This document shows positions 5,721-24,112 of a stretch of 29,895 nt of DNA, in pieces (position 1 is the stretch's first letter; each line of letters begins with the position of its first letter). This DNA comes from a virus: IMG/VR virus record IMGVR_UViG_3300025112_000116, positions 1 through 29,895 of that record; one strand, 5' to 3'. Made by a program: the position numbers and the translations under genes. The notes below the pieces were generated by a model. The model was not told where the DNA came from and searched no databases. It saw only the letters and a program-made list of their open reading frames with translations.

Positions 5721-7786
5721 TGGGTATTAAAAGATGGGTTGCTGATGCCGATAATACTGTAACCAACGCGTTTGAGCCAAATTTGGTTACCAGAGGCACT
5801 GGCTCGAATATGGGCGCCGCCGATTCTTTAGAAGTGTTTATGCTTTACGCACAGGCGTCTGCTTCTTCGACTAATGATAGCCTAGGCCTCGGCGCTGGAA
5901 ATAGTCGAGAATTGTCCCGGATTCTTATTAAATTTCCGACAACAGAAATATCTGCTAGTCGTACGTCCGGAAGCATCCCTCCAAGTGGTAGCGTTACTTT
6001 CCATCTTAAAATGTTTAATGCCGAACATCCATTTACGCTACCTCAAGATTTTCAATTAGTTTTTTTGCCGGTTTCTGCCTCCTGGCAAGAGGGCCCCGGA
6101 CTTGATATGGATAACTATACCGATTTAACTTACAACGAATCGGGTTCCAACTGGATGAGAAGAGGCCGCAAAGCATCGTTCGTGGCAGATCCCCAAAAGG
6201 GTAATACTTCCTCTGGTTCCTTACAGGGGCACGCTACCAATAATTTTGGCGAATTATCAAAAATATTTGTTACCGGCGCCGATGGCCATGTTTTCAAATT
6301 TCAAATCGGTACCGCCTCAAACGATGGACGATGCGATACGGATGCGATTTTTGTTTCAGGTGCTGCCGGGGGGACTGCGGACCAATTTTTCCACGCTCTC
6401 TCCGGAGCAATGTTTTCCGCGAGTATGGTAGATTATGCTGCTAGTACTTATCCTCAAGCGTTTAGTGATACTCACGCCGATGGCCATTTTACTGTTACTA
6501 GTCAATCACTTGATGGCCCCAGGGTTGCGATCACTTCTTCTGTATTTTCTGGCTGGGTTAGTGAAGACCCAAACAATCTTATTCAAAAGTCAGGCGGCCA
6601 TGGCATTTCGGCCGACTCGGAAGGCCAGCCTTATAATCAAATACAGTATCTTACTGTCGCGGGACTTTCGTCTTCGGGCGATAGGGGCACATGGCAAGCG
6701 GGCGGCTCATACCACACATCTTCCACTGATTTTAGTTACACTGCTAGCTTTTCAAAAGGATATGAAGATTTAGAGATTGATATAACCGGGCTTATGGAAC
6801 ATTGGTTTTCTGGAGCGTGGGGCGGGGCGCCGGGCGAGGGATATGCTAATTATGGTTTAGGAATAAAGCTTATAGAGTCGCTGGAATCAGGAAGCGTTTC
6901 ATATTATACCAAAAAGTTCTTCTCCAGGTCGACGGAATTTTTCTTTAAAAGGCCGGTAATTGAAGCTAGGTGGGATAGCAGAACAGAAGATGATCGCGGC
7001 AATACATTTCTTAGTAGTGCATTAGTACCCGCCGTTGATAATTTAAATTCAATATATTTGTATAATTATGTAAATGGCCGCTTAGTGGATATTCCAACGC
7101 TCGGATCCACAAATAAAATATTTGTAAGCTTGTATTCTGGCTCTTCTACTCCCGCCGGTGATGCTTTGAATTTGCCCATAGGCGGCGGCGTCGTCGCTGC
7201 CGGCGACACTAATATTACAGGCAATCGCATGTCGACAGGTGTATATTCAGCCAGTTTTGCTCTGACGGGGGGGCATTCATTAACGGTCGGCGAAACATTA
7301 ACAACTGTTTTTGATGTATGGCATACTGGCACTTCACAGGCCATACGCTATCTCACAAGCTCGTTTGAACCAAAAGAGAGAATTGCGCACACCATCGCCC
7401 CTACATTTGAATACGTAACCAATATTACCAATCTTAGGGCTGAGTATTCTAGAAAAGATACAGCTCGGTTTCGATTTTTTGTTAGAGAGAAAAATTGGAA
7501 TCCTACCATTTATAATGTTGCAACTGCTACGACGCCTAGTAAAACAATAATAAGTGCGTCTTATAAAATAATGAGGACCACTGATGACTTGTTTGTGGTG
7601 CCATATGGAACCGGTAGTAAATATTCTACTTATTTATCACATGATCTTTCTGGCAATTATTTCGATCTAGATATTAATCTTCTAGAATCTGATTATAGCT
7701 ATGGCATAAGGGTTAGCTATTACAATCCGTCAATCGGTTCTTGGGTTGAACAACCAGAAGAGTTTAAATTTAGAGTAGTAGAATAA
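5720..7786 (+). CDS. DNRLRE-type beta-rich structural protein
   Basis: This protein of 688 residues starts in the TAATG overlap with the gp6-like gene; AAGGA at 5704-5708 supports the start. Residues 10-90 (DNTVTNAF, then GSNMGAADSLEVF, then SRILIKFPTTEI) and residues 350-420 (LEIDITGLMEHWFSG, then NYGLGIKL, then RPVIEARWD) look like the two ends of a DNRLRE/CBM96-type jelly roll, a fold of extracellular and carbohydrate-binding proteins. The halves are separated by an inserted domain of about 90 residues, 189-280 (HVFKFQIG, then TADQFFHALSGAM, then HFTVTSQSLDGPRVAITSS). Residues 570-686 look Ig/FN3-like and end in a beta strand. Lying between gp6-like and gp7-like genes, it is probably a peripheral baseplate or fibre-base protein. 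The fold call is by pattern; the function is inferred. Confidence 0.7.
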   Translation: MGIKRWVADADNTVTNAFEPNLVTRGTGSNMGAADSLEVFMLYAQASASSTNDSLGLGAGNSRELSRILIKFPTTEISASRTSGSIPPSGSVTFHLKMFNAEHPFTLPQDFQLVFLPVSASWQEGPGLDMDNYTDLTYNESGSNWMRRGRKASFVADPQKGNTSSGSLQGHATNNFGELSKIFVTGADGHVFKFQIGTASNDGRCDTDAIFVSGAAGGTADQFFHALSGAMFSASMVDYAASTYPQAFSDTHADGHFTVTSQSLDGPRVAITSSVFSGWVSEDPNNLIQKSGGHGISADSEGQPYNQIQYLTVAGLSSSGDRGTWQAGGSYHTSSTDFSYTASFSKGYEDLEIDITGLMEHWFSGAWGGAPGEGYANYGLGIKLIESLESGSVSYYTKKFFSRSTEFFFKRPVIEARWDSRTEDDRGNTFLSSALVPAVDNLNSIYLYNYVNGRLVDIPTLGSTNKIFVSLYSGSSTPAGDALNLPIGGGVVAAGDTNITGNRMSTGVYSASFALTGGHSLTVGETLTTVFDVWHTGTSQAIRYLTSSFEPKERIAHTIAPTFEYVTNITNLRAEYSRKDTARFRFFVREKNWNPTIYNVATATTPSKTIISASYKIMRTTDDLFVVPYGTGSKYSTYLSHDLSGNYFDLDINLLESDYSYGIRVSYYNPSIGSWVEQPEEFKFRVVE

Positions 7787-7789
7787 AAA

Positions 7790-10700
7790 ATGTCATTACG
7801 TGAACTTTTTGACCAAATGCAAAAAGCAAAGGTGCTAGCCGATGTTAGCGCCGACCAAATAGCCGAAGAAGTAGAATCTGTTGGTTATCACGAACAAGAC
7901 GTCATCAAAGACAATCGATTTATTCCCACCATAGACTTTTCAGACCCTGCTAATTTTGCAAAATATGGATCTGCAGAAGAATACTATGATCAAGCAATAA
8001 AAAGAATATATAAAACTTATCCATATGACGGCTCGTTAAAAGAACGTTTAGAGTGGGAAAATAGTTCCTCTTATGTTGATCTTTACTTATATGAAAATAG
8101 ATATCCTCGCACGAACGGATATGCAACTCTTTCTGCGGATGGGTGGGGCGTCTTAAACGGCTCGATGACCTCTGAAGGATATGGCCTACCAACTACCGAA
8201 GAATATATTTCTTTTTATGGAGGACCCCACACCAATCCAAATGGGATGGGAGATTATTCCATACAGTTTACGGGCTCAAATTACTATCATACCGCAAGCA
8301 ATCGTACTGACAATCTTGCTTTGGACATTGCAGACAAAGGCGTAACGGTAGAATTTTGGTTGAAAAAAGATCGATTTCTAGATTTTAATACTCTAGGTGA
8401 CGCGCAAGTAACTAAAAAAGAAGTAATTTTTGATCTTTGGAACGGCGAACACTCCGGCAGCACAGGCTATGGAAGGTTTAGAATTGAATTAACCGCATCG
8501 CATGCACCAGATGTGTTGGGGAATACTGACGGAGGGTTTACAGTAACTCTTGTATCGGGCACTAGTGGATTTCAATGGGCCAATCCGCTTACTGGTACTG
8601 TACCGGTGAGCGGCGGCGCAAGACAAGCGTTCACGAGCGCCTCCATAGCCGATGGTAATTGGCACCACTATGCATTCTCTTTTCTATCAGCCTCTACGAC
8701 CGCTCTCGTCCAGGGCACGATAAGCAGATTTTATGTTGATGGTGTATTAAACAACGAAGCGGTATTTAGTTCTTCAGCGCCAGTTGAAAATATTACTGGT
8801 TCCATGCAAGCAAGAATTGGGGCCCTGGTGACGGCTCCCTCTGGAGGGGCTCGTTTGGCTTCTTGGGGCGAAGCCGGCTCTGGCAAACTGTCTGCTTCTT
8901 TGGATGAATTCAGGTACTGGAAAACCCAAAGAAGTTCTAAAGACATTGGGCGCCATTGGATCGATCAAGTCGGAGGGGGCACAAATTCAGACCCCATTCC
9001 TGGAAATAGCTCTTCATTAAACTTGGCCAATACTACGCTGGGTGTCTATTATAAATTCAACGAAGGAATTACTGGGACAAGCTCTGTTGATAATACGGTG
9101 CTAGACTTTTCTGGAAGAGTAACAAACGGCTCCTGGACCGGATACACTTCCAACTCTAGAAACACAGGGTCGGCAATAGTTTCAGCCTCTGCTGCTATAA
9201 AAGAGTTTTTAGATCCAATCATCTATTCGTTTCATCCAGACGTTATAACTCTGGCTAACGAACTACAAGGTTCTGGGTCATATCACGATGTCAACAACAA
9301 TGCGGCTCTTTATAATACGATGCCGACTTGGGTTACCGAAGAGGACCAAGAGGGTTCCAAAAATTTGCATAAATTAACGCAGATAATGGGCAGCTATTTA
9401 GATTCCCTGCATCTTCAAATTGAGGCCCTAAATAAACTAAAAGATGTGCAATACCCCAGCGGCACCAATAAACCTTTAACTTTTGCAAATAGGCTTTTAG
9501 AATCTGCGGGTTTAATCTCGCCGGAAATATTTCTTGATGCGGATATAATAGAAAAATTGGCGGATCGCTCGGAGGAGAGACTATACGAAAAATCGTTGGT
9601 TGATGTTAAAAATACAATTTATCAAAACATCTATAATAATTTATCATTTATTTATAAATCTAAAGGCACTGAAAAGTCTTTTAGAAATCTAATTCGTTGT
9701 TTTGGTGTTGATGAGGAGCTCATCAAGTTTAATATGTATGCTAACAATATTGAATATGAACTCCAAAACAATGCGACAAGTCGAGTTATACCAAAAAGGT
9801 TTGTTGATTTTAATAGATCAAGCTCTGTTGAGGCGACTGTATTTCAATCTTCAAGTTATATAAGCGGGAGCACAAATTTAACCAGCGGGTTTGCCTTTAC
9901 TGTTGAGGCTAATGTTGTTTTTCCACCAAAGTTAGATAGGATTTCAAAACATTTTATAAACAAAGAATTTTTAACAGCTTCTATCTTTGGGGTGCACAGT
10001 TCCTCACATCAACATTGGGATTCAACATTCGCTATACAGGATGCGGGAAATTTCCAAGTAGTGGCATGTCGAGACGAGTTAGGGAGCGCTGACGCCAAAT
10101 TTAAATTAATCAGATCTGGAACCGCCGCCGATGGCCTTTCATTTCTTCCTCTAAACGAGACCACGGAAGTTAATGAATTAACAAGTTCATTGTTTACAGA
10201 TGTATACGATAATAGTAATTGGAATTTCGTTGTAAGAGTTCGGCCTGAAAAATATCCTTATGTTGGTCTTGTAACTGGCGCCCTCGGCTTTACCAACGGA
10301 ACCAAAGGAAATGACTACATTGTAGAATTCCGCGGCATTAATATGGAAGGCGGCGTCATTGTAAATGAGTTTTCTGTTAGCGGGAACGCTTATGATATGG
10401 CCGCCGCAAGCCGCCTCGCGGCGGTGATACCCCAAGCACCCCTATCGGGCGCCCTCTTTTTAACCGGCTCCCGAAGATTTTTTGTTGGAGCTCATAGAAA
10501 TAATTTTACTGGCAGTCTGATACACAATTCTGATGTAAAGGTGGGATCGCTAAGAGTATGGCTCGATGATATAAATGAAAAGGCCCAAAGAGCGCATGCT
10601 AAAAATATTCTTGATTTCGGAACCTATAGAACAAATGAAAATGCTTTTCCATTCTTGCCGTCTGCATCTTTTGGCGAGGTTCTATCCCAAGATACTTTAA

Positions 10701-13700
10701 TATTAAATTGGGATTTTAATCAAAATACCGGCTCCAACGCCGATGGCGAATTTACCGTAGTTGATGCTTCTTCTGGTTCTTATGTTGGTGGCGAGCCCTC
10801 ACTGGCCACCGACATGTATGGAGCCCCAAATCTGGGTACAGATCTGAGCCCTGGTTCAAGCAAATTTGGTTGGCTTGGCCCAATATTGAACAGGAAGCAC
10901 CCGGGCCTAGGATATGGTTTTGCTGCCGATGATACAAAAGCCATAGATAAAGAATTCATTAGCATTTCTAGACAAAATTTACCGGAGAGCCTACAATCAG
11001 AAGATATGATTACGGTTTATGACGGGACCGAAAGAGATATTTTTATAAGGGGCACTCGACCAGTAAATTATTCTTTCGCGTTTGAAAAAAGCTTGTATCA
11101 AAGTATCTCAGAAGAAATAATGAATTATTTTGCCACAATTCATGATATTCATAATTTAATTGGTCAGCCGGTCAATAAACGTCGACAAGATTATAAATTG
11201 ATGGCGCACGCACGCCAAAAGTTTTTTGAACGTGTCCAGAACGACACAATCGATTTTGATAAGTTCTATGAGTTTTATAAATGGTTCGATAGTTCTTTAT
11301 CAATTATGCTGCAGCAACTAGTTCCGGCGTCTGCAGATGTGGCGGAATCAGTTCATACAATGATTGAAAGCCATGTTTTAGAAAGAAACAAATATCAATT
11401 CAAAGCCCCCATGTCTGATTTTAAAGATCCAGATCCTCTTGCGGCAGGCATGGCTCAGGCATGGTTGCCATTGACGCTAGCGCCCGCCGCTGGGGGTGCC
11501 GCGATGGCCGATGCCGCGGCCCCAACCGGCAGAATAATACCGACAGACCAGGATCGCATGGGCGGGTGGCTTTTTAAACATGCGCCTGTCGCGGAAGAAA
11601 TAGCTGACGAATTAGGCAAATCTGTAAGTAGTGTTGATTGCACCGATTTGCAAAAAGCAAACTACGATTGGTGGAAAGACAGTGCAATAAGGACTGATAC
11701 ATGTTTTGGTGGCGTAACAACAATTAACAAATATCGAGAGATCCTGCGAAACAGTACAGACGAAGGCGTGTACCCGGCAGTTTCCGGCGGCTTCAGGCGA
11801 GAACAAACTAGCATTTTTAGGCTTTCTATTTCTGAAATGCCAGTTATTCATGGAGTGAATTATCACACGAGCAAAAGAAAAGATATTATTTTTTCTGTAA
11901 CTCACCCGGATGGCCCGTTGATGGATCTTGACCCGAGCTTCAACATTCCTGCTAATATAGCGTTGGCGTTTGGTGATGAAGTCGAGCAACTCCGTCCGAC
12001 CCTTGACGTAGTATACCCGGACAGGAAACAGCGTCTAGGGTTTAAGCTGAACGCAAAAATTAATCGACCCGGAGATGATGATTATTTGACCGCAGATGGT
12101 AATAATATTGCTCCATTTAGTTTATATAGCTCGTCTGTGGAAACCGGTTATAACCACGAGATTGCTCACAATTTTGCTTCAGGCGTTATGGTCACCAATT
12201 TACATAGCGATACATATGGAGAATTTTATGAAGCCCCGATACAAAGTCCCTTCACTTCTCATTGGGTAGGCGGTAGGGAATACAGGCACGTTGAATTAAA
12301 CAAATATGATTCAGATAAAAGTGGGCCCAATAATTTAGATTCTCCTGATGATAGGCCAGAAGGGTTTAAAATTCTCTGTGGCATTGATTTCGATCTGCGT
12401 CCCAGACCGGATTGGACGACGACTGGCGCTTTGGGCATTGTGGGCCCTCGATATCCTGAAGTCGATGATATTGACACAACCACCCGACGTGGCGATCTTC
12501 AGCCAAACAGGCCGCCATATAGGTATGACCGCCCGAAAGGAAATAGATATCGAGAAGTGATGGCAAAGAGGCCGGTTAATATTAAAAATATTCAATCCAC
12601 TACCGGTTCTAGTGTTTTAGGCAACTATACACATAATTATGAAATTATACAATCTTGCGGAAGAACTTCAAACGATCCATTTTGGCAGGATCAATCATTT
12701 GATTTTGCCATCAACCCTGAAACAACGGCCACAAGGGGCAGATTCCCTCTTACAGGAAATAATCTTATTGAAGCGGGCACCAGCGGCAGGGTTGCTGCAT
12801 CGAATGTCAGTGGTGCTTTAAATTATGAACTACCGGAAAGAACGGGAAGCGATTCTAATAAAACGATCATAGTTAATAGATTTATATCGCCCGCGGCGCC
12901 TGAAGTACAATCAAGGGGATATTTGGATCCGCCTCATGAAGAATTTAGCGTCTATAACAACTTGAATTATAGAAATCTATCTGTTAGAGGATTAATTGGA
13001 TTTAGTATGACTAGCGGTTCAGAGGAAACATGGACCGCCATGGAGGCACAAGATCAAGGGAACCACTGGAGAGGGCTTAGAACGCTACTTAGTCTTCATT
13101 CAACGCGCTTTGGCGGCGATCCGGTATTTACGCCCACTCCGGATGATTTATATGGCCGCGGCACTAAAGCCCATCCCCATCCGGATGTATCATCTAATCC
13201 TTCATACCACAAGATTCAACGTAACACAAAACTTCGATTAGAGTTTACTAATGATCCACTAACATATTATGACGCACTCACAAACGATGTTATAACCGCC
13301 TCAGTTCAAGATAACGGTTGGATTCAACATCCGATACCACAATCGGCAAGGCAATATCATTGGGTTACCTCTTCTTTGACCGCTAGCGCTGTTTTATTCG
13401 GATACACCGAATTAAGCGCTGGTCTTCCTACGAGCATGCCACTTATGAGTGCGTCTGGTATTGCGCCGCATGAGATCTCCGACGAGTCGATGCCGGGTAT
13501 CGCGCGCGATTTTGTCGGCTTAAACCTGATTGTATACGAGCCCATAAGCTGTTCTGCAGATCCATCTGGCAATATGTTGGGATATAACGCGGCCGAGGTT
13601 GCCAATAACAATGTCATGGTCGCGCTGAGGCCGACAACCCATGCTGGTGCAACCGCTTTCGTGAGATTTGACAACATTGCAAGTAATTTTAATGCACTAA

Positions 13701-16700
13701 TGCTTCATCGCAATGGACCATATCAATATCCCATGTGGAAACGAATTAGAACAGGGGAGCATCCTATCGCGCGATATCAAAGAGAAAGAAACATTTTATC
13801 GGTGAGATCCAACCCTAGAATATTTAGCCATCAACATGGAACAACAGTGGTTCCAGTACGCTCTCTACAGGGCAATGCGGCCTATCGATACACCGAGCAG
13901 CCAATCATGTCAAGATATCATCCTGTGTTATTTTTATATAATGGCGTCGATGTGCGTGTCTCATGGGCGAACAACTTAGATTATTTTTCTAATGAAAGTT
14001 TGAACAATAGGCTAAATCTACATAAAGACATTAAACTGAGTCCTGCATATCAGTGGTTTAAAAACAAAACTTTGATTTCAAACAATTCGGCAATAGAATA
14101 TAAAGAAAGAATTTATCCTCGCGAGGTTAATGTATATCAAAATACAACACGAGCGAGAACACAATATCTTATCGACAATATTTGGGATGATCTTAGAATA
14201 AACAGAACTACCACCACTCTAACTACCGCCATGGGTCATCCAACGATTAAGGATTCGCTTGATAGCGCTAGTATTTGGCCTCTAGATGGCCATGCCAATT
14301 TTAGAACCACCCCTCCTTCATTAGGAATAAAAGATGGGGCCGGCGAATTACAATCTAATAGCGCTTGGTACGGGTTATCTGGCAATCTTGATATAACCGC
14401 TAGTGCGGTATATGCTAGTCGAATACCAGTTGGTTATAACGGCAGCCGCGGCGAAAATACTGTTGTAGGGGGAGATTCTGCTTGGAATCTTACTTCAAGT
14501 GGTAGAGCGCCTTATAGAACATATGAAGATTATTGTCAATATTTGCGCCTTATTGGTAAGGACCACACAATAGTTCCTGAATTTAGAATTAGTGAACACA
14601 TTGAGGACTATGTTGACACAGCCCAAGAAAACTGGCTTACCGATTATGATGATGTATTTGACTTGACTGGCTCGGCTCTGTCGAGCAGTTCGGAGAAGAA
14701 TTTTTATAAACATTATGGGACTGCCGAGTTCTTTAAATATTTTAGTGTTATTGATGGAGATGTAAATGGACGGCAATGGCGGGGCCCCGGCGCTGAAAAA
14801 AATTCAACAGAAAATACTGCAATTAAACGACACAAATTGCGCTTGGAAGCATCTGCGATCAAGCAATTTTTGCCATATAAGGGATTTTACCCAGTTGAAA
14901 GAACTTTAGAATTAGCGACTCTGTTTTCAAAATCATACGGCGATAATGTTTCAGGCAATTACCCGGCCGCATTTAGAGCAATGTTGAATCCTCTTTTTGG
15001 ACCAGGAATCTTATACAATACCATTAAATCTGGCATTGCAGTTGGCAGTTTTGTAACGTATTGCACCGCCTCTGAGCCCAGTACACAGCCGGATATAGCG
15101 AACTGCGGCCAGGCGGTCGATTCGGCCGTTGGATTAGATTTACCAGAGGGCAAATTTCAATATGGCAACAATTCAGTTTTAAGCGGCAACAGCAATAAAA
15201 ATGCGTCGCAAAACGCATACGATTTTCAAAGAATTTCATTTGAAGCATTATACAGACCTAGAGAACATCTAAAAGCCGAGGCAATTAGTGGTTCCGAATT
15301 AGGAAAAATTTATGATTGTGGATTAAGATCGGCTAGTTTATCTGGCAACAGTATTAATGTTCGTGCCGCGGCCGGATCTTATCTTCACAATGGAACCATA
15401 TGGAACGGCCTTGGAAGCAAGATTTATGAACTTGCTATTGATAATTGGTTATGCGGCGTCACTGAGTTCTTCATGCAAAATCAAAATTTAACCACTTTTC
15501 AATCGGTAGGAGAAAATGATTTTGATCCCAGTGGTGAGGGGGTTACTCAAGGCGATAAATATGCGATGACTCTCACTTTGTATAGAACCTTAGATCCAGT
15601 AGGTACGCAGAGCGATGTGCACGCGACCAGCTATGATTATGTCGATAGAAGCAGTTTCGAAATGTATGAGCGGGGAAGCGCCTTTGGGCCGCCCTTTGTT
15701 CTAGATCGCGGCGACCAGCTCGCCGAGATCCCGATCGGTGACTCGGAAACCGGACATTCGTGTAGCTTTGCTCCCCACACGCCGGCATATTTTAATGGCA
15801 CTGGTACAGTAAATTTTGTTTATACTCCATCGTTTACAGGGAAGGCAGATCTAGAAGATATATTTACAAATCTAGAACAAGTGTATGATAGAAGCATGGA
15901 AGCGGGCTACTACACCGACGCTATTGGGTATTATTTTGCACAGCAAGTATCCGAGAGTTTTAATCTTAAGCAGAGGGTACCCGTATTTAATTCGGAAACT
16001 GGCGAAGAGCAACCCGCATGGCTTATTCAAAGCAAATTTGAAACACCGGTACTTAATTTTGCGAATGCTGCCACGGTAGCCCCCGCAGACCCAACTAATT
16101 TAACTAGTGATAGTGGAATTATTTCTAAAGGCATGTGGCATCAAGAGGGCGCATTAATAACCGACTCTAAGGCAGGAATTTTTGCTGAAATTTCCACCCC
16201 AGCAAACGTTCTCGCACTGAGCGTCAGAAATCCCAAGTCTTTGGCAAAATTAGTCGGGTTTGAAGAGGGCAAGCCAAAGGCGATTGGTAAAATAAAAGAT
16301 AAATTGACTCTTAGCGAGGCAGTAATAGTAGTACCATTCACAGTGGTGAAGGGGCGCCGACAATTCTATAGACTAAAGACGAGCACACCGGAAGAAAGAA
16401 GAGCTTCTTATATACTAAACAAATATATTTTGCCACCAAAATTTGATTATTTGTTAAATGATGTTGATCCAATATTGTTTTATGATTTTGAATTTACTAT
16501 GGACTTTACCAAAGAAGAAGTGGCACAATTGTGGCAAAACTTCTTGCCCAGTAGGGTCAATAATCATGATATGGAGTGTGCAATCGACCCCGCACAACAA
16601 ATATCAGGATGTACGATTGAGGATGACGAACTTATACATGATATATATAATTGTTCCGACACCCTTGAGTGGTTAGTATTTAAAGCTAAAAAACGTTGCG

Positions 16701-17101
16701 CAAAAGATTATACTAGACTTATCAAGAAAGACCTTACATCTAATCTATTCGCGGTTCCTTCAAACAATGATTCTAAATATAGTTATAATTGGCCATACGA
16801 TTATTTCTCTTTAGTAGAGCTAATTAAGATAGATGCAACTGCGCAGTATAAGAATGTTGCGGCGGGAGAGAGAGAAATGTTAGAAACACAGACACTACCA
16901 GAGATGGCCATCCCCGCCCAGAGCATGCATGATCCGGCGCCCCCCCCGGCCCAGAGCATGCATGATCCGGCGGGGCCCGCCATTAGTAAGCCTTCTCAGA
17001 CCAGTGGGGATTCTTCCTTGCCGGTGGTCAGCATTAGCCAACCTTTTATAACAGGAGAAAGTGCTCGTATAAAAAAAATCTCTAAAAAGAGGGACTACTA
17101 G
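7790..17101 (+). CDS. Giant baseplate protein: gpI/gp7-like segment with two LamG-like domains
   Basis: The protein has 3103 residues and takes nearly a third of the window. Residues 154-385 form a LamG/concanavalin-like jelly roll (YSIQFTGSNYY, VTVEFWLKKD, NWHHYAFSF, SRFYVDGVL, SASLDEFRYWKTQRS). Residues 487-645 are helical and end in YKSKGTEKSFRNLIRCFGV, which matches the 'KGT...' motif (KGT at 625-627) of P2 gpI/T4 gp7-type wedge proteins. Residues 690-940 look like a second LamG fold. Residues 1100-1207 are helical (FYEFYKWFDSSLSIMLQQL, then IESHVLERNKY), followed by an Ala/Gly/Pro linker at 1214-1252. A long beta-rich region of about 1300-2850 includes SVYNNLNYRNLSVRG and IPQSARQYHWVTSS, blocks I recall from other large uncharacterised phage proteins. 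Residues 2855-3023 are a compact C-terminal domain, then a tail with a duplicated 11-residue unit. Gene order after gp25 and gp6 supports a wedge role. Confidence 0.75.
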   Translation: MSLRELFDQMQKAKVLADVSADQIAEEVESVGYHEQDVIKDNRFIPTIDFSDPANFAKYGSAEEYYDQAIKRIYKTYPYDGSLKERLEWENSSSYVDLYLYENRYPRTNGYATLSADGWGVLNGSMTSEGYGLPTTEEYISFYGGPHTNPNGMGDYSIQFTGSNYYHTASNRTDNLALDIADKGVTVEFWLKKDRFLDFNTLGDAQVTKKEVIFDLWNGEHSGSTGYGRFRIELTASHAPDVLGNTDGGFTVTLVSGTSGFQWANPLTGTVPVSGGARQAFTSASIADGNWHHYAFSFLSASTTALVQGTISRFYVDGVLNNEAVFSSSAPVENITGSMQARIGALVTAPSGGARLASWGEAGSGKLSASLDEFRYWKTQRSSKDIGRHWIDQVGGGTNSDPIPGNSSSLNLANTTLGVYYKFNEGITGTSSVDNTVLDFSGRVTNGSWTGYTSNSRNTGSAIVSASAAIKEFLDPIIYSFHPDVITLANELQGSGSYHDVNNNAALYNTMPTWVTEEDQEGSKNLHKLTQIMGSYLDSLHLQIEALNKLKDVQYPSGTNKPLTFANRLLESAGLISPEIFLDADIIEKLADRSEERLYEKSLVDVKNTIYQNIYNNLSFIYKSKGTEKSFRNLIRCFGVDEELIKFNMYANNIEYELQNNATSRVIPKRFVDFNRSSSVEATVFQSSSYISGSTNLTSGFAFTVEANVVFPPKLDRISKHFINKEFLTASIFGVHSSSHQHWDSTFAIQDAGNFQVVACRDELGSADAKFKLIRSGTAADGLSFLPLNETTEVNELTSSLFTDVYDNSNWNFVVRVRPEKYPYVGLVTGALGFTNGTKGNDYIVEFRGINMEGGVIVNEFSVSGNAYDMAAASRLAAVIPQAPLSGALFLTGSRRFFVGAHRNNFTGSLIHNSDVKVGSLRVWLDDINEKAQRAHAKNILDFGTYRTNENAFPFLPSASFGEVLSQDTLILNWDFNQNTGSNADGEFTVVDASSGSYVGGEPSLATDMYGAPNLGTDLSPGSSKFGWLGPILNRKHPGLGYGFAADDTKAIDKEFISISRQNLPESLQSEDMITVYDGTERDIFIRGTRPVNYSFAFEKSLYQSISEEIMNYFATIHDIHNLIGQPVNKRRQDYKLMAHARQKFFERVQNDTIDFDKFYEFYKWFDSSLSIMLQQLVPASADVAESVHTMIESHVLERNKYQFKAPMSDFKDPDPLAAGMAQAWLPLTLAPAAGGAAMADAAAPTGRIIPTDQDRMGGWLFKHAPVAEEIADELGKSVSSVDCTDLQKANYDWWKDSAIRTDTCFGGVTTINKYREILRNSTDEGVYPAVSGGFRREQTSIFRLSISEMPVIHGVNYHTSKRKDIIFSVTHPDGPLMDLDPSFNIPANIALAFGDEVEQLRPTLDVVYPDRKQRLGFKLNAKINRPGDDDYLTADGNNIAPFSLYSSSVETGYNHEIAHNFASGVMVTNLHSDTYGEFYEAPIQSPFTSHWVGGREYRHVELNKYDSDKSGPNNLDSPDDRPEGFKILCGIDFDLRPRPDWTTTGALGIVGPRYPEVDDIDTTTRRGDLQPNRPPYRYDRPKGNRYREVMAKRPVNIKNIQSTTGSSVLGNYTHNYEIIQSCGRTSNDPFWQDQSFDFAINPETTATRGRFPLTGNNLIEAGTSGRVAASNVSGALNYELPERTGSDSNKTIIVNRFISPAAPEVQSRGYLDPPHEEFSVYNNLNYRNLSVRGLIGFSMTSGSEETWTAMEAQDQGNHWRGLRTLLSLHSTRFGGDPVFTPTPDDLYGRGTKAHPHPDVSSNPSYHKIQRNTKLRLEFTNDPLTYYDALTNDVITASVQDNGWIQHPIPQSARQYHWVTSSLTASAVLFGYTELSAGLPTSMPLMSASGIAPHEISDESMPGIARDFVGLNLIVYEPISCSADPSGNMLGYNAAEVANNNVMVALRPTTHAGATAFVRFDNIASNFNALMLHRNGPYQYPMWKRIRTGEHPIARYQRERNILSVRSNPRIFSHQHGTTVVPVRSLQGNAAYRYTEQPIMSRYHPVLFLYNGVDVRVSWANNLDYFSNESLNNRLNLHKDIKLSPAYQWFKNKTLISNNSAIEYKERIYPREVNVYQNTTRARTQYLIDNIWDDLRINRTTTTLTTAMGHPTIKDSLDSASIWPLDGHANFRTTPPSLGIKDGAGELQSNSAWYGLSGNLDITASAVYASRIPVGYNGSRGENTVVGGDSAWNLTSSGRAPYRTYEDYCQYLRLIGKDHTIVPEFRISEHIEDYVDTAQENWLTDYDDVFDLTGSALSSSSEKNFYKHYGTAEFFKYFSVIDGDVNGRQWRGPGAEKNSTENTAIKRHKLRLEASAIKQFLPYKGFYPVERTLELATLFSKSYGDNVSGNYPAAFRAMLNPLFGPGILYNTIKSGIAVGSFVTYCTASEPSTQPDIANCGQAVDSAVGLDLPEGKFQYGNNSVLSGNSNKNASQNAYDFQRISFEALYRPREHLKAEAISGSELGKIYDCGLRSASLSGNSINVRAAAGSYLHNGTIWNGLGSKIYELAIDNWLCGVTEFFMQNQNLTTFQSVGENDFDPSGEGVTQGDKYAMTLTLYRTLDPVGTQSDVHATSYDYVDRSSFEMYERGSAFGPPFVLDRGDQLAEIPIGDSETGHSCSFAPHTPAYFNGTGTVNFVYTPSFTGKADLEDIFTNLEQVYDRSMEAGYYTDAIGYYFAQQVSESFNLKQRVPVFNSETGEEQPAWLIQSKFETPVLNFANAATVAPADPTNLTSDSGIISKGMWHQEGALITDSKAGIFAEISTPANVLALSVRNPKSLAKLVGFEEGKPKAIGKIKDKLTLSEAVIVVPFTVVKGRRQFYRLKTSTPEERRASYILNKYILPPKFDYLLNDVDPILFYDFEFTMDFTKEEVAQLWQNFLPSRVNNHDMECAIDPAQQISGCTIEDDELIHDIYNCSDTLEWLVFKAKKRCAKDYTRLIKKDLTSNLFAVPSNNDSKYSYNWPYDYFSLVELIKIDATAQYKNVAAGEREMLETQTLPEMAIPAQSMHDPAPPPAQSMHDPAGPAISKPSQTSGDSSLPVVSISQPFITGESARIKKISKKRDY
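16916..16972 (+). repeat. Two perfect 24-base direct repeats, 33-base period, around a C8 run
   Basis: The 24-base copies at 16916-16939 and 16949-16972 are identical and offset by 33 bases, so each copy plus spacer encodes an 11-residue unit (PAQSMHDPA followed by PP or GP). A run of eight C (16940-16947) lies between them. They sit in the C-terminal, probably disordered tail of the giant protein. Perfect identity at DNA level points to a recent tandem duplication. Confidence 0.9.
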
Positions 17102-17113
17102 GGATAAACCAAG

Positions 17114-18115
17114 ATGGTAACATTTTTTAATAAAAAAGAAGAGGTAATAGATCTTCAACTTACTGAATATGGTAAATATTTGCTCTCTATGGGTCGGTTC
17201 AGCCCCGAGTATTATGCTTTTTTTGACGATGAAATATTATATGATTCAAGATATGGTGGATTTTTTGAACATCAAAATGAAGCCGAACAAAGAATTAAAA
17301 ACGAAACTCCGTCACTTAAAATAGTTCCAACAATCACAAGCGCGGAAACAAGAGTTAATCAATTTACAGACAATCTTATGAGCGCGTACACAAACAACAA
17401 TGTAGATCCGCTTAGTTCAGATATAGCCCAATATTTTAATCAGCAAACTTTTGAAGAAAAGGTTGATCTTTTGGGCGCCCCATTGGGCAATAGCAGCTTA
17501 TCAACAGACAAAGTGCCAGCGTGGTCGATATTTGCTTTGCACAATGAATTGTCTGCTGCGTCGCCCCCTTCGGATACATACACAAGTAGAAATGAATCTA
17601 TTTCTGGCCTCAGCGCCACAGAAGTCGGAGGCCCCGTGGAGCAGATACCACAAATAAATATTGAGGTGGATTATCAGCTATACGCAAAATCTGGTGAGTT
17701 TAATTCTTCAGTAGGGGTTGGCTCTTATATCAATTCTGATCTTTATCTCGCTATTAAGAGAAATTATCTATTCCTTGAAGTTTTAGAAGAGAATACTGAT
17801 TATATGAAAGAAAACTTTGATATAGAGGTGTTTTATTCTGGATCTGCAGATCCTAATAGCCCCCGAGAGCCGCTAAAAAGCATGTCGTTTATTAATTTGA
17901 CTGAGCCAGGTTCCGTAGAAGTGCCAGTCTCAATTGGGAATAGTGATAATTTGACACCAACCGTAGACTATTATATGACCGTGTTGGTTGATAATGAAAT
18001 ACCACAGAACTATATTTTGGAATCTGGCGCCGATGAACATTTTGTAACAAGAACTTCTGAGCGACTACCACTTCAAAGAGACCTTTATCAAACAGAAGAG
18101 GAGGATCCCTGCTAA
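17114..18115 (+). CDS. Phage structural protein with 'LTxxGKxLLxxG' N-terminal module
   Basis: The 333-residue protein starts 12 bases after the giant gene; AGGGA at 17100-17104 supports the ATG. Residues 9-49 (EEVIDLQLTEYGKYLLSMG, then YYAFFDDEILYDSRYGG) clearly resemble residues 8-49 of the protein at 25733-26650, so the two share an N-terminal module. I recall similar N-termini from uncharacterised genes of large phages but cannot name a function. The C-terminal part, about 265-300 (VEVPVSIG, then VDYYMTVLVDNE), looks like an Ig-type beta sandwich. The protein ends EEEDPC. The stop overlaps the next start as TAATG. The context suggests a baseplate or tail-fibre connector; this is inference. 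Confidence 0.65.
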   Translation: MVTFFNKKEEVIDLQLTEYGKYLLSMGRFSPEYYAFFDDEILYDSRYGGFFEHQNEAEQRIKNETPSLKIVPTITSAETRVNQFTDNLMSAYTNNNVDPLSSDIAQYFNQQTFEEKVDLLGAPLGNSSLSTDKVPAWSIFALHNELSAASPPSDTYTSRNESISGLSATEVGGPVEQIPQINIEVDYQLYAKSGEFNSSVGVGSYINSDLYLAIKRNYLFLEVLEENTDYMKENFDIEVFYSGSADPNSPREPLKSMSFINLTEPGSVEVPVSIGNSDNLTPTVDYYMTVLVDNEIPQNYILESGADEHFVTRTSERLPLQRDLYQTEEEDPC

Positions 18116-21100
18116 TGGCAGCCAATACAGCGATTGTAATGCCGAATATAAGCAGCAATTCCTTTAATAATATATTGCCGGTTCCTTTTTTGCAATCGGC
18201 CGTTTTAAATACCATTGACAATAACACTGTTGGCTTAAGCATGGAGATATTATTAAAATCTCTCAAAAACAGTAGAAAAAGAAAAAAATGGCATGATAGC
18301 AAAGCTATTAGGAATAGGCTAATGGTGTGTATTTGTTTGGTATCAACTCGGCGTACACTTGAAAGATTATTAAACAACACGTCTTATATGAGATCGGTCA
18401 TGCGCAAGTCGGGGCCCTCCCTAAATGTAAAAAAAATATATCTAGATTTTGATGCGATAGATAAATCCTCAACAGATAATAATGTTGAAATTATAAACAT
18501 GGACCTCGGCGAAGCAATTGAGAGTGTTAAAATGTCTGTAAAAACCAGCGTTCCGACAAAATCAATTGCAAAAGAGGGCTATTTGGCATGTTTAATAACT
18601 CCCTATTTGGCGCCACAACAAAAACATTCTTTCTGTTACGATGGATCGTTTACAACCGGCCTTTCAAATGAAAAGGGTAAATTAGGATTTGTAATGGGAG
18701 AGACCCGCATCGAAAGCCTACTTAGAGGCGGCAAACCCCCGAGCACGTCGTTATTGTTTACTTTGGAAGATTCAATTTCTGGCACACCGGGACAAGTTTG
18801 GGCCGGCCCGGTACACTATTATCGCCCTCCGCCTTTGCTGCCCGGCACCAGGGTGAGGCCCCCCGGTTCTTTTATGGCGGGCGCCTCTCATGATCATACT
18901 CGTCCCCATTCTAAGTTAAATATGAAACAAGTTGCAAATAAAAAAATATTAGATCTTAGATTTAAAAAAAATGGGGCTACTCAATTTAAAAAATATAAAT
19001 CTATTAATGAGAGACTACAAAATCGATTCCAAACAAAATCTAATATTTTTAAAAACGGCATCACAAAACAGAGGAGTTATTTTTCTCCTATTTTATTTAG
19101 TACAGAGCCTCGCCTCTTCGGCGATCAGGAAGGAGCTCGTCCAATTGCTGGCGGAGCTGTTAAATTCTTCTTTGCTTTTAACGCGGCAAGTGTGGCTAGG
19201 GATGGCGCAAGATTCAGCTATCTGTATAATAATAATTCCACTTTAGCTGAAGCCATACAAATACACGAGATAGACGTATACCGCAAAAGAGTTCGATGGC
19301 AGCCGGGAATTAGCGAACTTGCTGGCGCTCCAAGGGCAACAAGCAATTATGATAGGAATCAAAAAGAGGAGTTAGTTTGCAAATTAACAGATGGCTCTCT
19401 AAAACAATTACAATCTACAAACACTCCGGCCGGAATCTTTCAATTTGTTGGGTCCGATTTGTCGGCCGGCCGGTTTAAAACAGGTCTATATCAATATCGT
19501 GCATATGTTACATACACGGACGAATCTTCGAAAAAGCTAACTGATGCCGTCGATAGACTTTCTTCTGATTTTGCTCAGTATACTTCTTACGTTCGTTTGG
19601 CTACATATTCTCCCGGATTTAATACTTCTACTAATTCTTTTGATAAAAAAATTATAGATTATTTGTATACTACAACAACAAGCTGGAGCGATGTTGTAAA
19701 TTCATATTTAGGGGTTACGCTGGATTTGTTTGGAAGTGAAGCACTCCAAGGAACATCGATCGACGAGTGGCAAAGAAATTTACTTATTTTAACAGATCCT
19801 AGATCCGCTACGCCAAGTAGTTTGCTTATAATGGAAAAAATTGTGCAGGAACTATTAAGCACGCTGACAAGGCAAATATCAAGCACTTCGCCAATCACCT
19901 GTTCATTGACCAATGGAGAAACTCTAAATTTTTCTTCGAAGATACACGGTGCGCAAAGAAATTTCACGCCGGTGCCGGTTGTGCTGAGTCATAAATTCTC
20001 TTCTGCATACGATGCAAATCAGTTAAATTTGGGACGAAATTATATAAACGATCTCGAGCAACGCCCGGGCGTCCTTTCTTCTATTGGATATACAAAATGG
20101 AGAGCAAGGATATCTCGGGAAAAAAAATATTATGCTGGGGTAAGCTTTAACGAGGCGTCTATTAATGTGAATGGGTATCTTTCTCTTGAATCAATTGTAA
20201 CTCCGCAAAAAACAATTTCTCGGCAAGAAATGACTTTTGAAAATGGGTTGCCGTTGCTGAAAAATAAACTTGATCCAGTTGGCGAAAATATATTCAACGA
20301 TGCATCGGACTTATCTATTAAAAGTGATATATTAACTCTTAATGGTATTTCGATACGACCTCTTCGTGTAGACATAAAAGATGTTTTGGAATCAGATCAA
20401 GGGTGTCTTTCGTATATTGATAGTAAAGACGTTTTTGGCGCTGATTCTAATTTTGTTTTAGAAGATAAAACAAGCACCGCCGCATGTTCGGGTCCATCGG
20501 GAGATTCAATTCCCGGCGACGACGAGGTGAAAATTGAAGGCGCTTCGACCGATGATGATAAAATATTAAATACAGACATGGTTGATTCGATAATAAACAG
20601 CATACCAAATGATTTTAATAATAATCTTGTGGTTGATCCATCCAGCATAGGCGCCTCCCCAGCCGCGGCAGCTCTAAACTTAAATCTGAACGACTTAGTA
20701 GAAAAAGGAAGTTTCGACTTTGATTCAAAATATAATTCTTGTATGATAGTAGAATATCTTATTGGGTATGAGACGGGCATGGACGGCCCAGTTGTTAACG
20801 CGCCAATGTGGAAACAGCTAGATGAAGGAGACTTAAACAGAGCCCGTCAGGGTAGACAGGCTTTAATTTGTCGATTGCGCGATACTAATAAAGTTATAAA
20901 AGGTAAAAATGTTTATGAACTTCCTTCTTTTAATAGGCTATTCGTAATCGGAAAGCCTAAATATTATCCTTCCTTGCAGGCTGAGCCGGGCAATAGTTTG
21001 AAAAATATCTTGAATGCGCTGCAAAAGAATATGAAAAAGAATACTGTCAATAAAGCAAACATTGGCGTGCCAATTGAATATTTATCCTCGGACGAAACAC

Positions 21101-21342
21101 TTTTGAATCGGAAAATGAGCACATTTAGACGCCCGAGGCGTACGGGGACTTCTCGCTTCGGCACCGACTCCGGCGCCGGCACGGGCGGCTCATTTGCCAA
21201 CGGGGGCCGCCGCGGCGCGGGCGCAAGACCATCGAGTAGAATAACCACAAGAAGAGCCGGCGCCGCTGGTGGAGGTCGCACTGGTGGCGGTGGCACTGGT
21301 GGTGGCGGCACTGGTGGCGGTGGAGGCATGGGGGGCTACTAA
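18115..21342 (+). CDS. Large phage structural protein with His-rich segment and Gly-rich C-terminus
   Basis: The protein has 1075 residues. The start in the TAATG overlap is backed by a strong purine site, GAGGAGG around 18098-18104. Residues 50-90 are basic and helical (SLKNSRKRKKWH). Residues 225-270 are Pro-rich and hold a histidine cluster, PVHYY followed by GASHDHTRPHSKL, which could bind a metal ion. Residues 440-475 resemble an FN3 strand pair (GLYQYRAYVTYTDES). Residues 480-590 look mostly helical. The last 65 residues are a Gly/Arg/Ala/Thr tail ending in three TGGGG-type units. I do not recognise a named family. Its position among baseplate genes and its size suggest a structural role, possibly a fibre or hub-periphery component. 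Confidence 0.65.
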   Translation: MAANTAIVMPNISSNSFNNILPVPFLQSAVLNTIDNNTVGLSMEILLKSLKNSRKRKKWHDSKAIRNRLMVCICLVSTRRTLERLLNNTSYMRSVMRKSGPSLNVKKIYLDFDAIDKSSTDNNVEIINMDLGEAIESVKMSVKTSVPTKSIAKEGYLACLITPYLAPQQKHSFCYDGSFTTGLSNEKGKLGFVMGETRIESLLRGGKPPSTSLLFTLEDSISGTPGQVWAGPVHYYRPPPLLPGTRVRPPGSFMAGASHDHTRPHSKLNMKQVANKKILDLRFKKNGATQFKKYKSINERLQNRFQTKSNIFKNGITKQRSYFSPILFSTEPRLFGDQEGARPIAGGAVKFFFAFNAASVARDGARFSYLYNNNSTLAEAIQIHEIDVYRKRVRWQPGISELAGAPRATSNYDRNQKEELVCKLTDGSLKQLQSTNTPAGIFQFVGSDLSAGRFKTGLYQYRAYVTYTDESSKKLTDAVDRLSSDFAQYTSYVRLATYSPGFNTSTNSFDKKIIDYLYTTTTSWSDVVNSYLGVTLDLFGSEALQGTSIDEWQRNLLILTDPRSATPSSLLIMEKIVQELLSTLTRQISSTSPITCSLTNGETLNFSSKIHGAQRNFTPVPVVLSHKFSSAYDANQLNLGRNYINDLEQRPGVLSSIGYTKWRARISREKKYYAGVSFNEASINVNGYLSLESIVTPQKTISRQEMTFENGLPLLKNKLDPVGENIFNDASDLSIKSDILTLNGISIRPLRVDIKDVLESDQGCLSYIDSKDVFGADSNFVLEDKTSTAACSGPSGDSIPGDDEVKIEGASTDDDKILNTDMVDSIINSIPNDFNNNLVVDPSSIGASPAAAALNLNLNDLVEKGSFDFDSKYNSCMIVEYLIGYETGMDGPVVNAPMWKQLDEGDLNRARQGRQALICRLRDTNKVIKGKNVYELPSFNRLFVIGKPKYYPSLQAEPGNSLKNILNALQKNMKKNTVNKANIGVPIEYLSSDETLLNRKMSTFRRPRRTGTSRFGTDSGAGTGGSFANGGRRGAGARPSSRITTRRAGAAGGGRTGGGGTGGGGTGGGGGMGGY
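21278..21322 (+). repeat. Three 15-base tandem units encoding TGGGG
   Basis: The units 21278-21292, 21293-21307 and 21308-21322 are near-identical (GCACTGGTGG followed by a GGC/GGT variation). They encode a TGGGG repeat at the C-terminus of the 1075-residue protein. A G6 run at 21330-21335 follows, just before the stop. This is a low-complexity flexible tail, and the tract is prone to slippage. Confidence 0.85.
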
Positions 21343-21343
21343 T

Positions 21344-24112
21344 ATGTACGATACAATCTTTTTTATGGATAGACACCGCGTCGGAGGAAATTTAAATTTT
21401 CTTACCAATACGGGCATCGCCCACCCCAGTGTAAAAAAATTATGGTACCCCGATGGCAGAGTTGTTGAAGATACTACCGGCACTACTCCCGCGCGCCTTG
21501 CCGAGGGTATAATCGGCATACCGCGAACGGGAATCGGCCTCATCACAAGAGATAAGTTTTTAGCCCTGATGGGTAGGTATTTTTATTGGAATACCGAAAC
21601 CGAAACATACGAAAAAATGTTTGAAAATCTCGATTTTATCGATATAGTCGGTGGGGGCGCTAATCAGTCGATATTAACGGGACCCATTATAGATATCTCA
21701 TTCATAGAAGATTTGTCTTTGTCATCATCGGCAAGTGAAAAGATAAGATATAAATTTGACATACGTGAAGATGCCTGGAAAGAGTTGCTTATCAATAGTC
21801 CACTTTTTGGAAGCAATCTGGCCGCCGAGGAGCTTCTTAAACAGCTTGATGGCAGCGGCTGGCCGTATATTAAAAAATATTTTGTATCTGGGTTTACATC
21901 TGATGATCAAATATTGGGACCCTTTAATTCAGGTGAAGAGATACCACCCTTGTTTAATCAAACCGCCACATTTGAAGATTTTTCTACGCGCTTTGCTGTT
22001 CCGTCTCTTACAGAAGATGCGGCGTTCAATTATATAAAAAATATTTCTATGGTTTATAATCATCATATTGCAGCACTTGAAGAAGACTTTGAAGAAGTTT
22101 CCTTCGCGACCTTCGGCGCCACCGGCGGTTTAAATGAGACTGCGTTACCAAACTATTATATGATGTATTATCCAACAGCGGCCACCAATGGTAATATCGA
22201 CCTGCCTGAAGCATATCGTGATCAAATTACTTTAAACGGGGGCGTTAATTGGTCTGGAAATGTCCTCGGCGGCTCTGGTACCGGCATGAGCTATTATAAT
22301 GAACTTAGTGTATATTTGAATACTCTCTCGGAATCGCCCGCGACTTCGCCATCTCCGGCGGCGGGCGTTGGCGCTCCCGGGTCCACCATTGACCACGTCC
22401 AGGCGATATTTGACGCAAGATATAGTAATATTTGTATTCGGCCCCGTAGTTTATCGATTTTAGGACCCCAGAGCTATTTGGATAATAGCGGAAGGCCTTA
22501 TTATAATCGTTTGCCCATGTATATAAAAATTCAAATAGGCCTAGGCGGCACAGATACTCCTTCTAACTATATGCCCCAGCGCCTCGCGAACAGCGCGCCC
22601 CCTAGGGATAATATTTTTCGAGAAAAATTAAAAGATTATAATTTGTGGGATCACTTTATAACAAATTTAATTCGAGTCGATATCGATGGGCTTATGGGCA
22701 TCAATGATCAGATTGAGTCGCCCGAGCAACAAATCGCATGTGAGGCGTCTATTGATAATAATATGCCGGATGGCACCGTTAACAAAACTCGTTCACTTGA
22801 TGGTACAGGCTTTTTAAAGGAAACTCTTGGATCAGCGCCAATTAGTTTATGGACGATGGACTTCTATCACAATTGGGTAAAGAAGTGGCTAGACCTTACC
22901 AGTGGCAGTAATTTTGGTACCTTTAATAACCAGTACAATACCGAACGTGTAGAGTTTGTGGCGCCATCGTACAGCCTCAACGACGAAGGAGCCCGTGGCA
23001 CATACTTGGTTGATTCTTCATATTACCAAGACACCAACAACGATGGCATATTCGAATTTCAAGCTATCGACGAGTCGGACCCCTCGGATATTCATACTAA
23101 TTTATCGGATCTGGACTGGTCTGAGATCACCTTGGGAAACCAATTGCGGAAAGAGATGATGAGGACCATAGAGGAATATTGGAACGGCGACGACTGCTAT
23201 TCAGAAACACTTATGTTTAAAATTGAAAAGCGCAGAGTCCCGACCGACCTTCTGTCTATTCCGTTAAGCGACATACATCGACACACTCCGGTTCAAACGT
23301 TTTATATACCAAATGATGACAATGCCAATCTTATAGAATATATCGATTCACAAATATTATATGGCGTCAAATATCAATATGATATTAAAACGATTAAATT
23401 GATAGTTGGAAATAGGATTTCTTATGAGGATCCGCGTGCACCAGAAGAACTTGGAAAGGGGAAAGCAGTTGGAAACGCTTTAGGCTTCTATAAGGAAACA
23501 GAGCAAGATCTTGTTCTACCAGATCTGAATGCCAATATTTATATAAATGAGGCCGAAGATACTGGATGGGGTTATCCGGACCAAAGTGGAAAATTTGTTT
23601 TCAAGGGCGACACGAGCCACTCGGTCGGCCGCGTCGCGTCCGTCGGTCTCGATCAAGTCTTCGTAAGGCTTCAGGACGGCGTTGGTGTAAACAACAATAT
23701 TAATGGCGGCGCTATGCCAGATTCATGGAATGTTCCTCTGCCAACGTTGGTAACTTTGCCGGGCGGAGACGTCAAGGATGAGCCATATGGCCCGGAGGGG
23801 ACCCAGGCTGAGTTGTATGCTCTCCTCGAACGACAATGGGCTGTCCGGGACCGGATCAGCGAGATTTTTAATACGGCTACCGAGAACGCGTTCACCTTCT
23901 GGACGGGCTCAGCGCAGTACACTGGACTAGCATATTCCCAAAGGGTAAATCGTATCACCTCAATAGAGGAGGCTATATACATCTTTGATAATAGGCCTTC
24001 CCCGCCGCCGCTTGTAGGAGACGTATATAGAGAAAACTTAATAAACTTCTTGGATAATTTGGGGATTGATATGTCGGAGGCTCCCCACACGATGTTCGAA
24101 ATTTTGGTATAA
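21344..24112 (+). CDS. Large phage structural protein with FN3-like domain
   Basis: I place the start at the ATG at 21344, one base after the previous stop, giving 922 residues. The frame is also open upstream to an ATG at 21269, but that extension reads through the Gly-repeat DNA in another frame and gives an artificial Ala/Val string, so I reject it. The ribosome site is weak (GGAGG at 21322-21326, 17 bases away), so the gene probably depends on re-initiation. The N-terminus reads MYDTIFFMDRHRVGG. Residues 327-348 are a Pro/Ala/Ser/Gly linker. Residues 615-695 look FN3-like (SETLMFKIEKRRVP, VQTFYIPND, YIDSQILYGVKYQYDIKTI), a pattern I recall from large phage structural proteins. The function is unassigned; a baseplate or fibre role is inferred from context. 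Confidence 0.68.
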   Translation: MYDTIFFMDRHRVGGNLNFLTNTGIAHPSVKKLWYPDGRVVEDTTGTTPARLAEGIIGIPRTGIGLITRDKFLALMGRYFYWNTETETYEKMFENLDFIDIVGGGANQSILTGPIIDISFIEDLSLSSSASEKIRYKFDIREDAWKELLINSPLFGSNLAAEELLKQLDGSGWPYIKKYFVSGFTSDDQILGPFNSGEEIPPLFNQTATFEDFSTRFAVPSLTEDAAFNYIKNISMVYNHHIAALEEDFEEVSFATFGATGGLNETALPNYYMMYYPTAATNGNIDLPEAYRDQITLNGGVNWSGNVLGGSGTGMSYYNELSVYLNTLSESPATSPSPAAGVGAPGSTIDHVQAIFDARYSNICIRPRSLSILGPQSYLDNSGRPYYNRLPMYIKIQIGLGGTDTPSNYMPQRLANSAPPRDNIFREKLKDYNLWDHFITNLIRVDIDGLMGINDQIESPEQQIACEASIDNNMPDGTVNKTRSLDGTGFLKETLGSAPISLWTMDFYHNWVKKWLDLTSGSNFGTFNNQYNTERVEFVAPSYSLNDEGARGTYLVDSSYYQDTNNDGIFEFQAIDESDPSDIHTNLSDLDWSEITLGNQLRKEMMRTIEEYWNGDDCYSETLMFKIEKRRVPTDLLSIPLSDIHRHTPVQTFYIPNDDNANLIEYIDSQILYGVKYQYDIKTIKLIVGNRISYEDPRAPEELGKGKAVGNALGFYKETEQDLVLPDLNANIYINEAEDTGWGYPDQSGKFVFKGDTSHSVGRVASVGLDQVFVRLQDGVGVNNNINGGAMPDSWNVPLPTLVTLPGGDVKDEPYGPEGTQAELYALLERQWAVRDRISEIFNTATENAFTFWTGSAQYTGLAYSQRVNRITSIEEAIYIFDNRPSPPPLVGDVYRENLINFLDNLGIDMSEAPHTMFEILV

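Follow-up and report, generated by a model that had tools for sequence, protein, structure and literature searches.

Which kind of protein is encoded by a single, uninterrupted reading frame for 3103 residues that follows genes resembling those for phage baseplate wedge proteins: a wedge subunit that carries additional domains, a receptor-binding apparatus in its own right or a giant tail fiber? The gene in question resides in the 29,895-base IMG/VR virus record IMGVR_UViG_3300025112_000116, which was analyzed over its whole length and is referred to as the window in the following. The record is probably a fragment of a larger phage genome, and the list of fiber genes and possible other wedge genes that can be drawn from it is therefore necessarily partial. 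A near-DNA search among phages yielded no match to this DNA. The preliminary description of the sequence had placed the giant gene after gp25-like and gp6-like genes in the order expected for a wedge, and both upstream genes are indeed recognized, the gp25-like one by PF04965 and the gp6-like one by phrog_219 and phrog_10646 (Table 1). The gp6-like protein shares 31% identity over its full length with the product of a gene from Microcystis phage Mel-JY01 and 30% with a protein annotated as baseplate wedge protein in Flavobacterium phage immuto. The giant gene is not their immediate neighbor, as one gene for a 688-residue protein, which had gone unmentioned, intervenes. This protein matched no Pfam or PHROG family, while its gene is present in 67 compared related loci, and the order gp25, gp6, 688-residue protein gene, wedge gene is kept in all 65 loci in which all four genes are visible. 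In phages immuto and Mel-JY01, shorter hypothetical genes occupy the place of the 688-residue protein gene.

Table 1. Position of genes and protein segments in the window (nucleotide positions; residue numbers refer to the 3103-residue protein).
Feature	Residues	Position	Strand	Remarks
gp25-like wedge/sheath-initiator gene	134 aa	3488..3892	+	PF04965, 45.1 bits (cut-off 27.2); phrog_261, phrog_43
gp6/gpJ-like wedge gene	599 aa	3921..5720	+	phrog_219, E 1.5e-16; phrog_10646, E 7.6e-18
Gene for 688-residue protein	688 aa	5720..7786	+	between gp6-like gene and giant wedge gene
Giant gp7/gpI-type wedge gene (very probably BW3)	3103 aa	7790..17101	+	uninterrupted reading frame, no stops
Conserved N-terminal segment	1-105	7790..8104	+	mean 94% identity among close relatives
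LamG domain 1 (Laminin_G_3/pentraxin-like)	106-475	8105..9214	+	PF13385, family LamG HMM, fold
First half of gpI/gp7-type core	478-655	9221..9754	+	helices, KGT, helix, first strand
KGT motif	625-627	9662..9670	+	
Second beta-sandwich	656-1050	9755..10939	+	LamG-like in predicted fold only
Second half of gpI/gp7-type core	1051-1205	10940..11404	+	strand, helices, VPAS...ESHVLER strand
C-terminal module	1206-3103	11405..17098	+	separate gene in relative L178; site of extra LamG domains in relatives
Variable linker	1206-1400	11405..11989	+	gene break in L178 about 60 aa after core
Most divergent stretch	2401-2850	14990..16339	+	comparison of close relatives

Homologs of the 3103-residue protein were detected in 66 IMG/VR loci in a first scan, many of them full length with 2783 to 4275 residues, and two further scans yielded at least 535 and at least 572 confirmed relatives of its core. 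Relatives in cultured phages are few and comprise immuto gp109 (1265 residues) and a protein from Mel-JY01 (1337 residues); the uncultured 484-kb phage LR756508 also encodes a homolog (1400 residues). Judged by these sequence comparisons, the protein is a member of a large family from mostly uncultured phages, and its IMG/VR relatives share a five-part arrangement of the type N1-LamG1-core-LamG2-core. Among 84,980 prokaryote genomes two relatives were found. One of these (CP070664.1:585492-594914, 42% identity) is situated in the 2.85-Mb chromosome of a metagenome-assembled genome from candidate division WOR-3 and may stem from an integrated phage or from a binning error.

Taken by itself, the 3103-residue protein yielded a weak Laminin_G_3 match at residues 244-386 and nothing else when compared with Pfam and PHROGs; the gpI family (phrog_5726) was not matched, and a direct sequence search against PDB chains also returned nothing. 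Similarity to gpI becomes apparent at the level of the family. A gpI/gp7-type segment had originally been delimited to residues 487-645 with the KGT motif at its end; the motif does lie inside this segment, though not at its very end. Residues K623, K625, G626, K629, R632, N633, R636, C637 and G639 are invariant over 56 homologs, and the bin comprising residues 601-650 is the best conserved of the whole protein. P2 gpI matches phrog_5726 at 2e-44, and the same family matches the relative L066 at residues 585-641. Across 16 records phrog_5726 produced two matches only, both of them in the KGT segment of the giant gene (E 5.4e-5 and 0.009), and a search with Tail_P2_I over 14 large records gave one sub-threshold match (E 0.024), located in the KGT segment of the LR756508 homolog. 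When the family profile was compared with an alignment of seven gpI proteins by hhalign, a score of 28.1 (E 0.001) was obtained with the KGT motifs in register; none of 100 column shuffles performed as well, the best one reaching 20.3. Residues 480-660 align with immuto gp109 with a probability of 97.6% (E 3e-12). The corresponding hhalign comparison of the core with T4 gp7 was not significant (E 0.083, seven of 100 shuffles as good), and a control comparison of P2 gpI with T4 gp7 in the same test also failed (E 0.14). The T4 gp7 family phrog_964 was not found in 14 large related records.

Structure prediction was complicated by the neighboring domains. In an AF2 model of residues 1-1200, LamG1 was modeled well and the core poorly, with pLDDT values below 50 through most of residues 571-662 and 1063-1200, and fold searches with this model were filled by matches to LamG1. 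We therefore turned to the LamG-free core of immuto, for which a model of 354 residues without inserted domain was built from 99 sequences (mean pLDDT 73, about 82-90 in the KGT region). Besides the KGT half, it covers a second half, which ends in DFIPAR...GIIIKPNLLNR. Eleven of the 13 PDB entries matched with Z values of at least 2 are baseplates of contractile phages or injection systems, headed by A-1(L) (Z 5.8 over 173 residues), the Streptomyces coelicolor contractile injection system (5.3) and P1 (5.0 and 4.7) and further including Pam3, three entries of phi812, Klebsiella KP1 (aligned at 648-898), XM1 and T4; the model range aligned in the fold matches covers both core halves. The individual Z values are low, the best being 5.8, such that the weight rests on the consistency of this list of baseplates, in which chains were identified from title and length only. 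The 1004-residue chain from T4 entry 5IV5, which is gp7 as judged by its length, is aligned at residues 647-896. Within this range lies STKGIEASYKFL, which apparently corresponds to KSKGTEKSFRNL.

Together, the matches of phrog_5726 in relatives, the shuffle-tested gpI profile comparison and, at low Z values, the fold matches support the assignment of the KGT segment to the gpI/gp7 type. The core was matched once within the window and a single gene for it was found in every one of 13 related records of 88-203 kb (IMG/VR entries for which completeness is not shown), and the sole record with two core matches carries a single gene that is interrupted within the KGT segment. As anticipated, a separate second copy of the segment was thus found neither in the window nor in the 13 related records. 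This bears on the idea that the protein is a giant tail fiber or adhesin with an incidental KGT likeness and that the true gp7/gpI is encoded elsewhere. Its length and LamG content are adhesin-like and it resembles P2 gpI weakly in sequence, but a fiber would be hard to reconcile with a core that is the best conserved part of the protein, is matched by independent family models in relatives, is dominated by baseplate chains in its fold matches and occurs without a second copy in the 13 related records. We regard this alternative as highly unlikely and are very confident that the product of the gene is BW3, the third wedge protein, represented by gp7 in T4 and by gpI in P2.

The gpI-type fold does not appear to end near residue 645, as had been supposed. 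A second core half with the sequence LVPASADVAESVHTMIESHVLER is located at residues 1051-1205; within it, residues 1119-1199 align with immuto residues 664-740 (E 2.5e-4), and it was found in nearly all homologs whose sequence extends that far. The distance from KGT to the second motif amounts to about 170 residues in immuto versus about 550 in the 3103-residue protein, and a beta-sandwich is situated between the two halves, indicating that this second domain separates the first strand of the gpI-type sheet from the second. It is thus very likely that the gpI-type core is split into residues 478-655 and 1051-1205 by insertion of the second beta-sandwich (residues 656-1050), an arrangement predicted from the model of a homolog and from alignment, as the model of the 3103-residue protein is not confident in this region. 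The second LamG-like domain would then probably not flank the core, as the preliminary description had it, but interrupt its fold. Nor is a wedge core within a larger protein as exceptional as had been suggested, since the matching core of T4 gp7 itself makes up residues 647-896 of 1032.

Of the two LamG-like domains originally proposed, the first is backed by several lines of evidence and the second at the fold level only. PF13385 matches residues 244-386 with an E value of 4e-5 in the full-record search, just below the Pfam cut-off, and LamG1 alone reaches E 5e-6 with 27.2 bits versus a cut-off of 27.6. A family LamG HMM matches residues 177-390 at E 3e-43, and in a VIA comparison the AF2 model of LamG1 superimposes on a LamG domain of PAPP-A with a Z value of 17.8 and an rmsd of 3.0 over 212 residues. 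The second beta-sandwich is predicted by AF2 strands with pLDDT values mostly between 70 and 89. It was matched neither by Pfam nor by the family LamG HMM, which did not match at the LamG2 place of the relatives either, and hhalign aligned LamG1 and LamG2 weakly (E 0.049). Further Laminin_G_3 domains with Pfam E values from 1e-19 to 9e-37 are present in relatives: L004 and L042 carry them in an N-side insertion, L154 has one following LamG2 and ahead of the second core half, and in L040 and L026 they belong to the tail. Full-length proteins contain one to five LamG domains, up to four extra copies residing in the tail, and protein length correlates with the number of LamG domains (r = 0.92, about 338 residues per domain, 38 proteins). 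The relatives add LamG domains like plug-in modules. No LamG domain was detected by the family LamG profile in the immuto group. A PHROG match termed "tail terminator" in the relative L119 falls in the region of its LamG1 insertion and was not accepted as an indication of function.

The C-terminal part, for which PHROGs returned no match, appears to be a module that can exist separately. In L178, the gene stops about 60 residues after the second core half (1156 residues) and the next reading frame encodes the counterparts of residues 1200-2850; in L149, L152, L169 and others the break is found further downstream. The giant gene thus consists of at least two modules that have been fused. Misassembly may account for single cases of split genes, less easily for the recurring pattern. 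Conservation differs markedly along the protein. Mean identity over nine pairs of close relatives is 93% in the first and 95% in the second core half, 94% in the N-terminal segment, 88% in LamG1 and 87% in LamG2, and along the tail it amounts to 79% (residues 1401-2100), 67% (2101-2850) and 84% (2851-3050). In the L002/L052 pair, bins between residues 2401 and 2800 drop to 33-44%, compared with 88-100% over the first 1900 residues. Together with the nine-pair means, this places a hypervariable part in the last third of the protein. Residues 2401-2850 are a candidate host-specific region, followed by a conserved C-terminal part.

BW3 proteins such as T4 gp7, A511 gp104, pyocin PA0619 and P2 gpI are the usual place of attachment for receptor-binding proteins (PMC10811340). 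We propose that the gpI-type core would form the wedge heterotrimer with two gp6-like subunits. It would do so as part of a giant protein, with a LamG domain ahead of it (residues 106-475), a beta-sandwich interrupting it (656-1050) and a separable tail of 1,900 residues behind. The extra domains would most likely be displayed along the baseplate rim, the usual site at which BW3 proteins hold receptor-binding proteins, and would add contacts of low specificity to surface polysaccharide, while strain-specific contacts would more likely be made via the hypervariable residues 2400-2850 or by proteins encoded downstream. As a whole, this explanation, a BW3 wedge protein with a split core, rim-studding extra domains and polysaccharide contacts of low specificity, appears likely to us; for an adhesive role of the LamG domains taken separately, the chances seem evenly balanced.

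It is conceivable that the core is that of a BW3 wedge protein while its LamG and LamG-like domains serve a structural or protective purpose and do not bind receptors. They could pack against neighboring wedges, the sheath or fibers, or build a cage like the two modules resembling carbohydrate-binding modules (CBMs) in AlgoCIS Alg11, which make up a spike cage (PMC8894135). LamG1 and LamG2 (88 and 87% identity) are conserved nearly like the core (93-95%), while divergence is concentrated at residues 2400-2850, which casts doubt on the LamG domains as strain-specific binders. Judged from these sequences, their conservation among close relatives is more like that expected for a structural role, and host choice may not be determined by the added LamG domains. 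On the other hand, a number of LamG domains that varies from one to five per protein via the tail would be odd for fixed packing, and the Vp4 wedge protein with CBM folds has been shown to bind cells (PMC11406892). A purely structural or protective role is accordingly plausible, its chances falling somewhat short of even, and receptor binding by the wedge protein is possible, if putative.

In its strong form, the initial proposal held that the wedge protein itself is the receptor-binding apparatus of a phage that has domains on its wedge instead of separate fibers. The presence of a large protein with LamG domains in the position of the wedge, the variable LamG copy number and the hypervariable residues 2400-2850 would fit with this. 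However, seven further conserved genes are located downstream of the giant gene in the window before a ruvC-like gene, and three of the encoded proteins, with 305, 387 and 505 residues, have relatives behind the wedge gene of immuto, near genes annotated as tail fiber and tail spike. We therefore consider the strong form unlikely. A related joint claim is likewise improbable. It posits that a wedge subunit has turned into a modular adhesion platform in widespread uncultured phages, with lectin-type domains of varying number in the gpI fold and the tail, and that these domains, together with its hypervariable stretch, set host range without dedicated fibers.

Returning to the BW3 assignment, the 3103-residue protein has the KGT-helix-strand core in common with P2 gpI (Tail_P2_I; PF09684, phrog_48, phrog_5726) as well as a helix and a strand with a P-A-S/R motif at a distance after it and the position of its gene behind those for gpJ/gp6 and gpW/gp25. 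P2 gpI consists of 176 residues and lacks LamG, whereas the core of the 3103-residue protein is interrupted by about 395 residues. T4 gp7 (phrog_964) is also a large BW3 wedge protein encoded behind gp6, and its core (STKGIEAS, KGI motif) aligns with the immuto core model; it differs in its length of 1032 residues and in that sequence similarity is not significant. Immuto gp109 (NC_055915, KNV73_gp109), annotated as hypothetical protein, shares both core halves (E 3e-12 and 2.5e-4) and the gene order gp25-gp6-hypothetical genes-wedge, but lacks the insertion in the core, is LamG-free by profile and reaches less than half the length. The proteins from Mel-JY01 (PP395634) and LR756508 resemble the 3103-residue protein in that their core halves are separated by several hundred residues; both are short proteins, and Pfam does not call the intervening stretch LamG.

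A further giant protein, Syn1_094 from Prochlorococcus phage Syn1 (3274 residues, annotated as virion structural protein), is encoded right behind gp25 and gp6 and has a KGT segment near residue 197, matches to phrog_4406 and to the "baseplate wedge subunit" family phrog_2885 and an extra YHYH domain (PF14240, residues 713-839). It differs from the 3103-residue protein by the absence of BLAST similarity and of LamG. In this T4-like cyanophage, its gene (positions 6200-16024 of our locus from NC_015288) is found where gp7 would be expected, implying that giant proteins at this place are not unique to the LamG wedge family. A survey reported gp7 to be missing in marine T4-like phages and cyanophages and to be replaced by VrlC (PMC7029224). 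The large "virulence associated protein" of Syn1 seems, however, to be encoded by another gene, situated behind gp8, and we did not adopt it as a replacement of gp7.

Baseplate wedge proteins bearing folds of CBMs are already known. Gp119 of Vp4 contains two CBM folds and binds bacterial cells (PMC11406892), and in AlgoCIS, besides Alg11, the gp7-like part of Alg12 has been described as a re-engineering hotspot (PMC8894135). Gp119 is a protein of the same type as A511 gp105, and Alg11 represents a different wedge subunit; their domains are CBM folds and not LamG, and they do not reside inside a gpI core. In TssG, the counterpart from type VI secretion systems, two loops protruding from the sheet bind TssK trimers (PMC6300606); by analogy, these loops may parallel the insertion in the gpI-type fold.

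The wedge core is among the best conserved parts of contractile injection machines. The natural series from gpI with 176 residues via the immuto protein with 1265 residues to proteins of 2783-4275 residues shows where it tolerates insertions and, with a domain in the fold and varying LamG copies, how baseplates may gain adhesive surfaces. Moreover, many phages have giant genes that now bear the label "hypothetical" or "virion structural"; a name and a position are thereby provided for them, also for those at the gp7 place of cyanophages, from which gp7 had been reported missing (PMC7029224).

Some related loci feature irregular wedge genes. In L056 (9998-22334), the gene is broken within the KGT segment into overlapping reading frames for 560 and 3557 residues, and in L121 (4645-12523) it is distributed across at least five reading frames. 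Sequencing errors, real breaks or frameshifting may be responsible. Downstream of the giant gene in the window, a gene for a protein of 1075 residues (18115-21342) encodes a glycine-rich C-terminal tail and is overlapped by 74 bases by a reading frame for 947 residues (21269-24112), which is listed with a GTG start and the true start of which probably lies further downstream.
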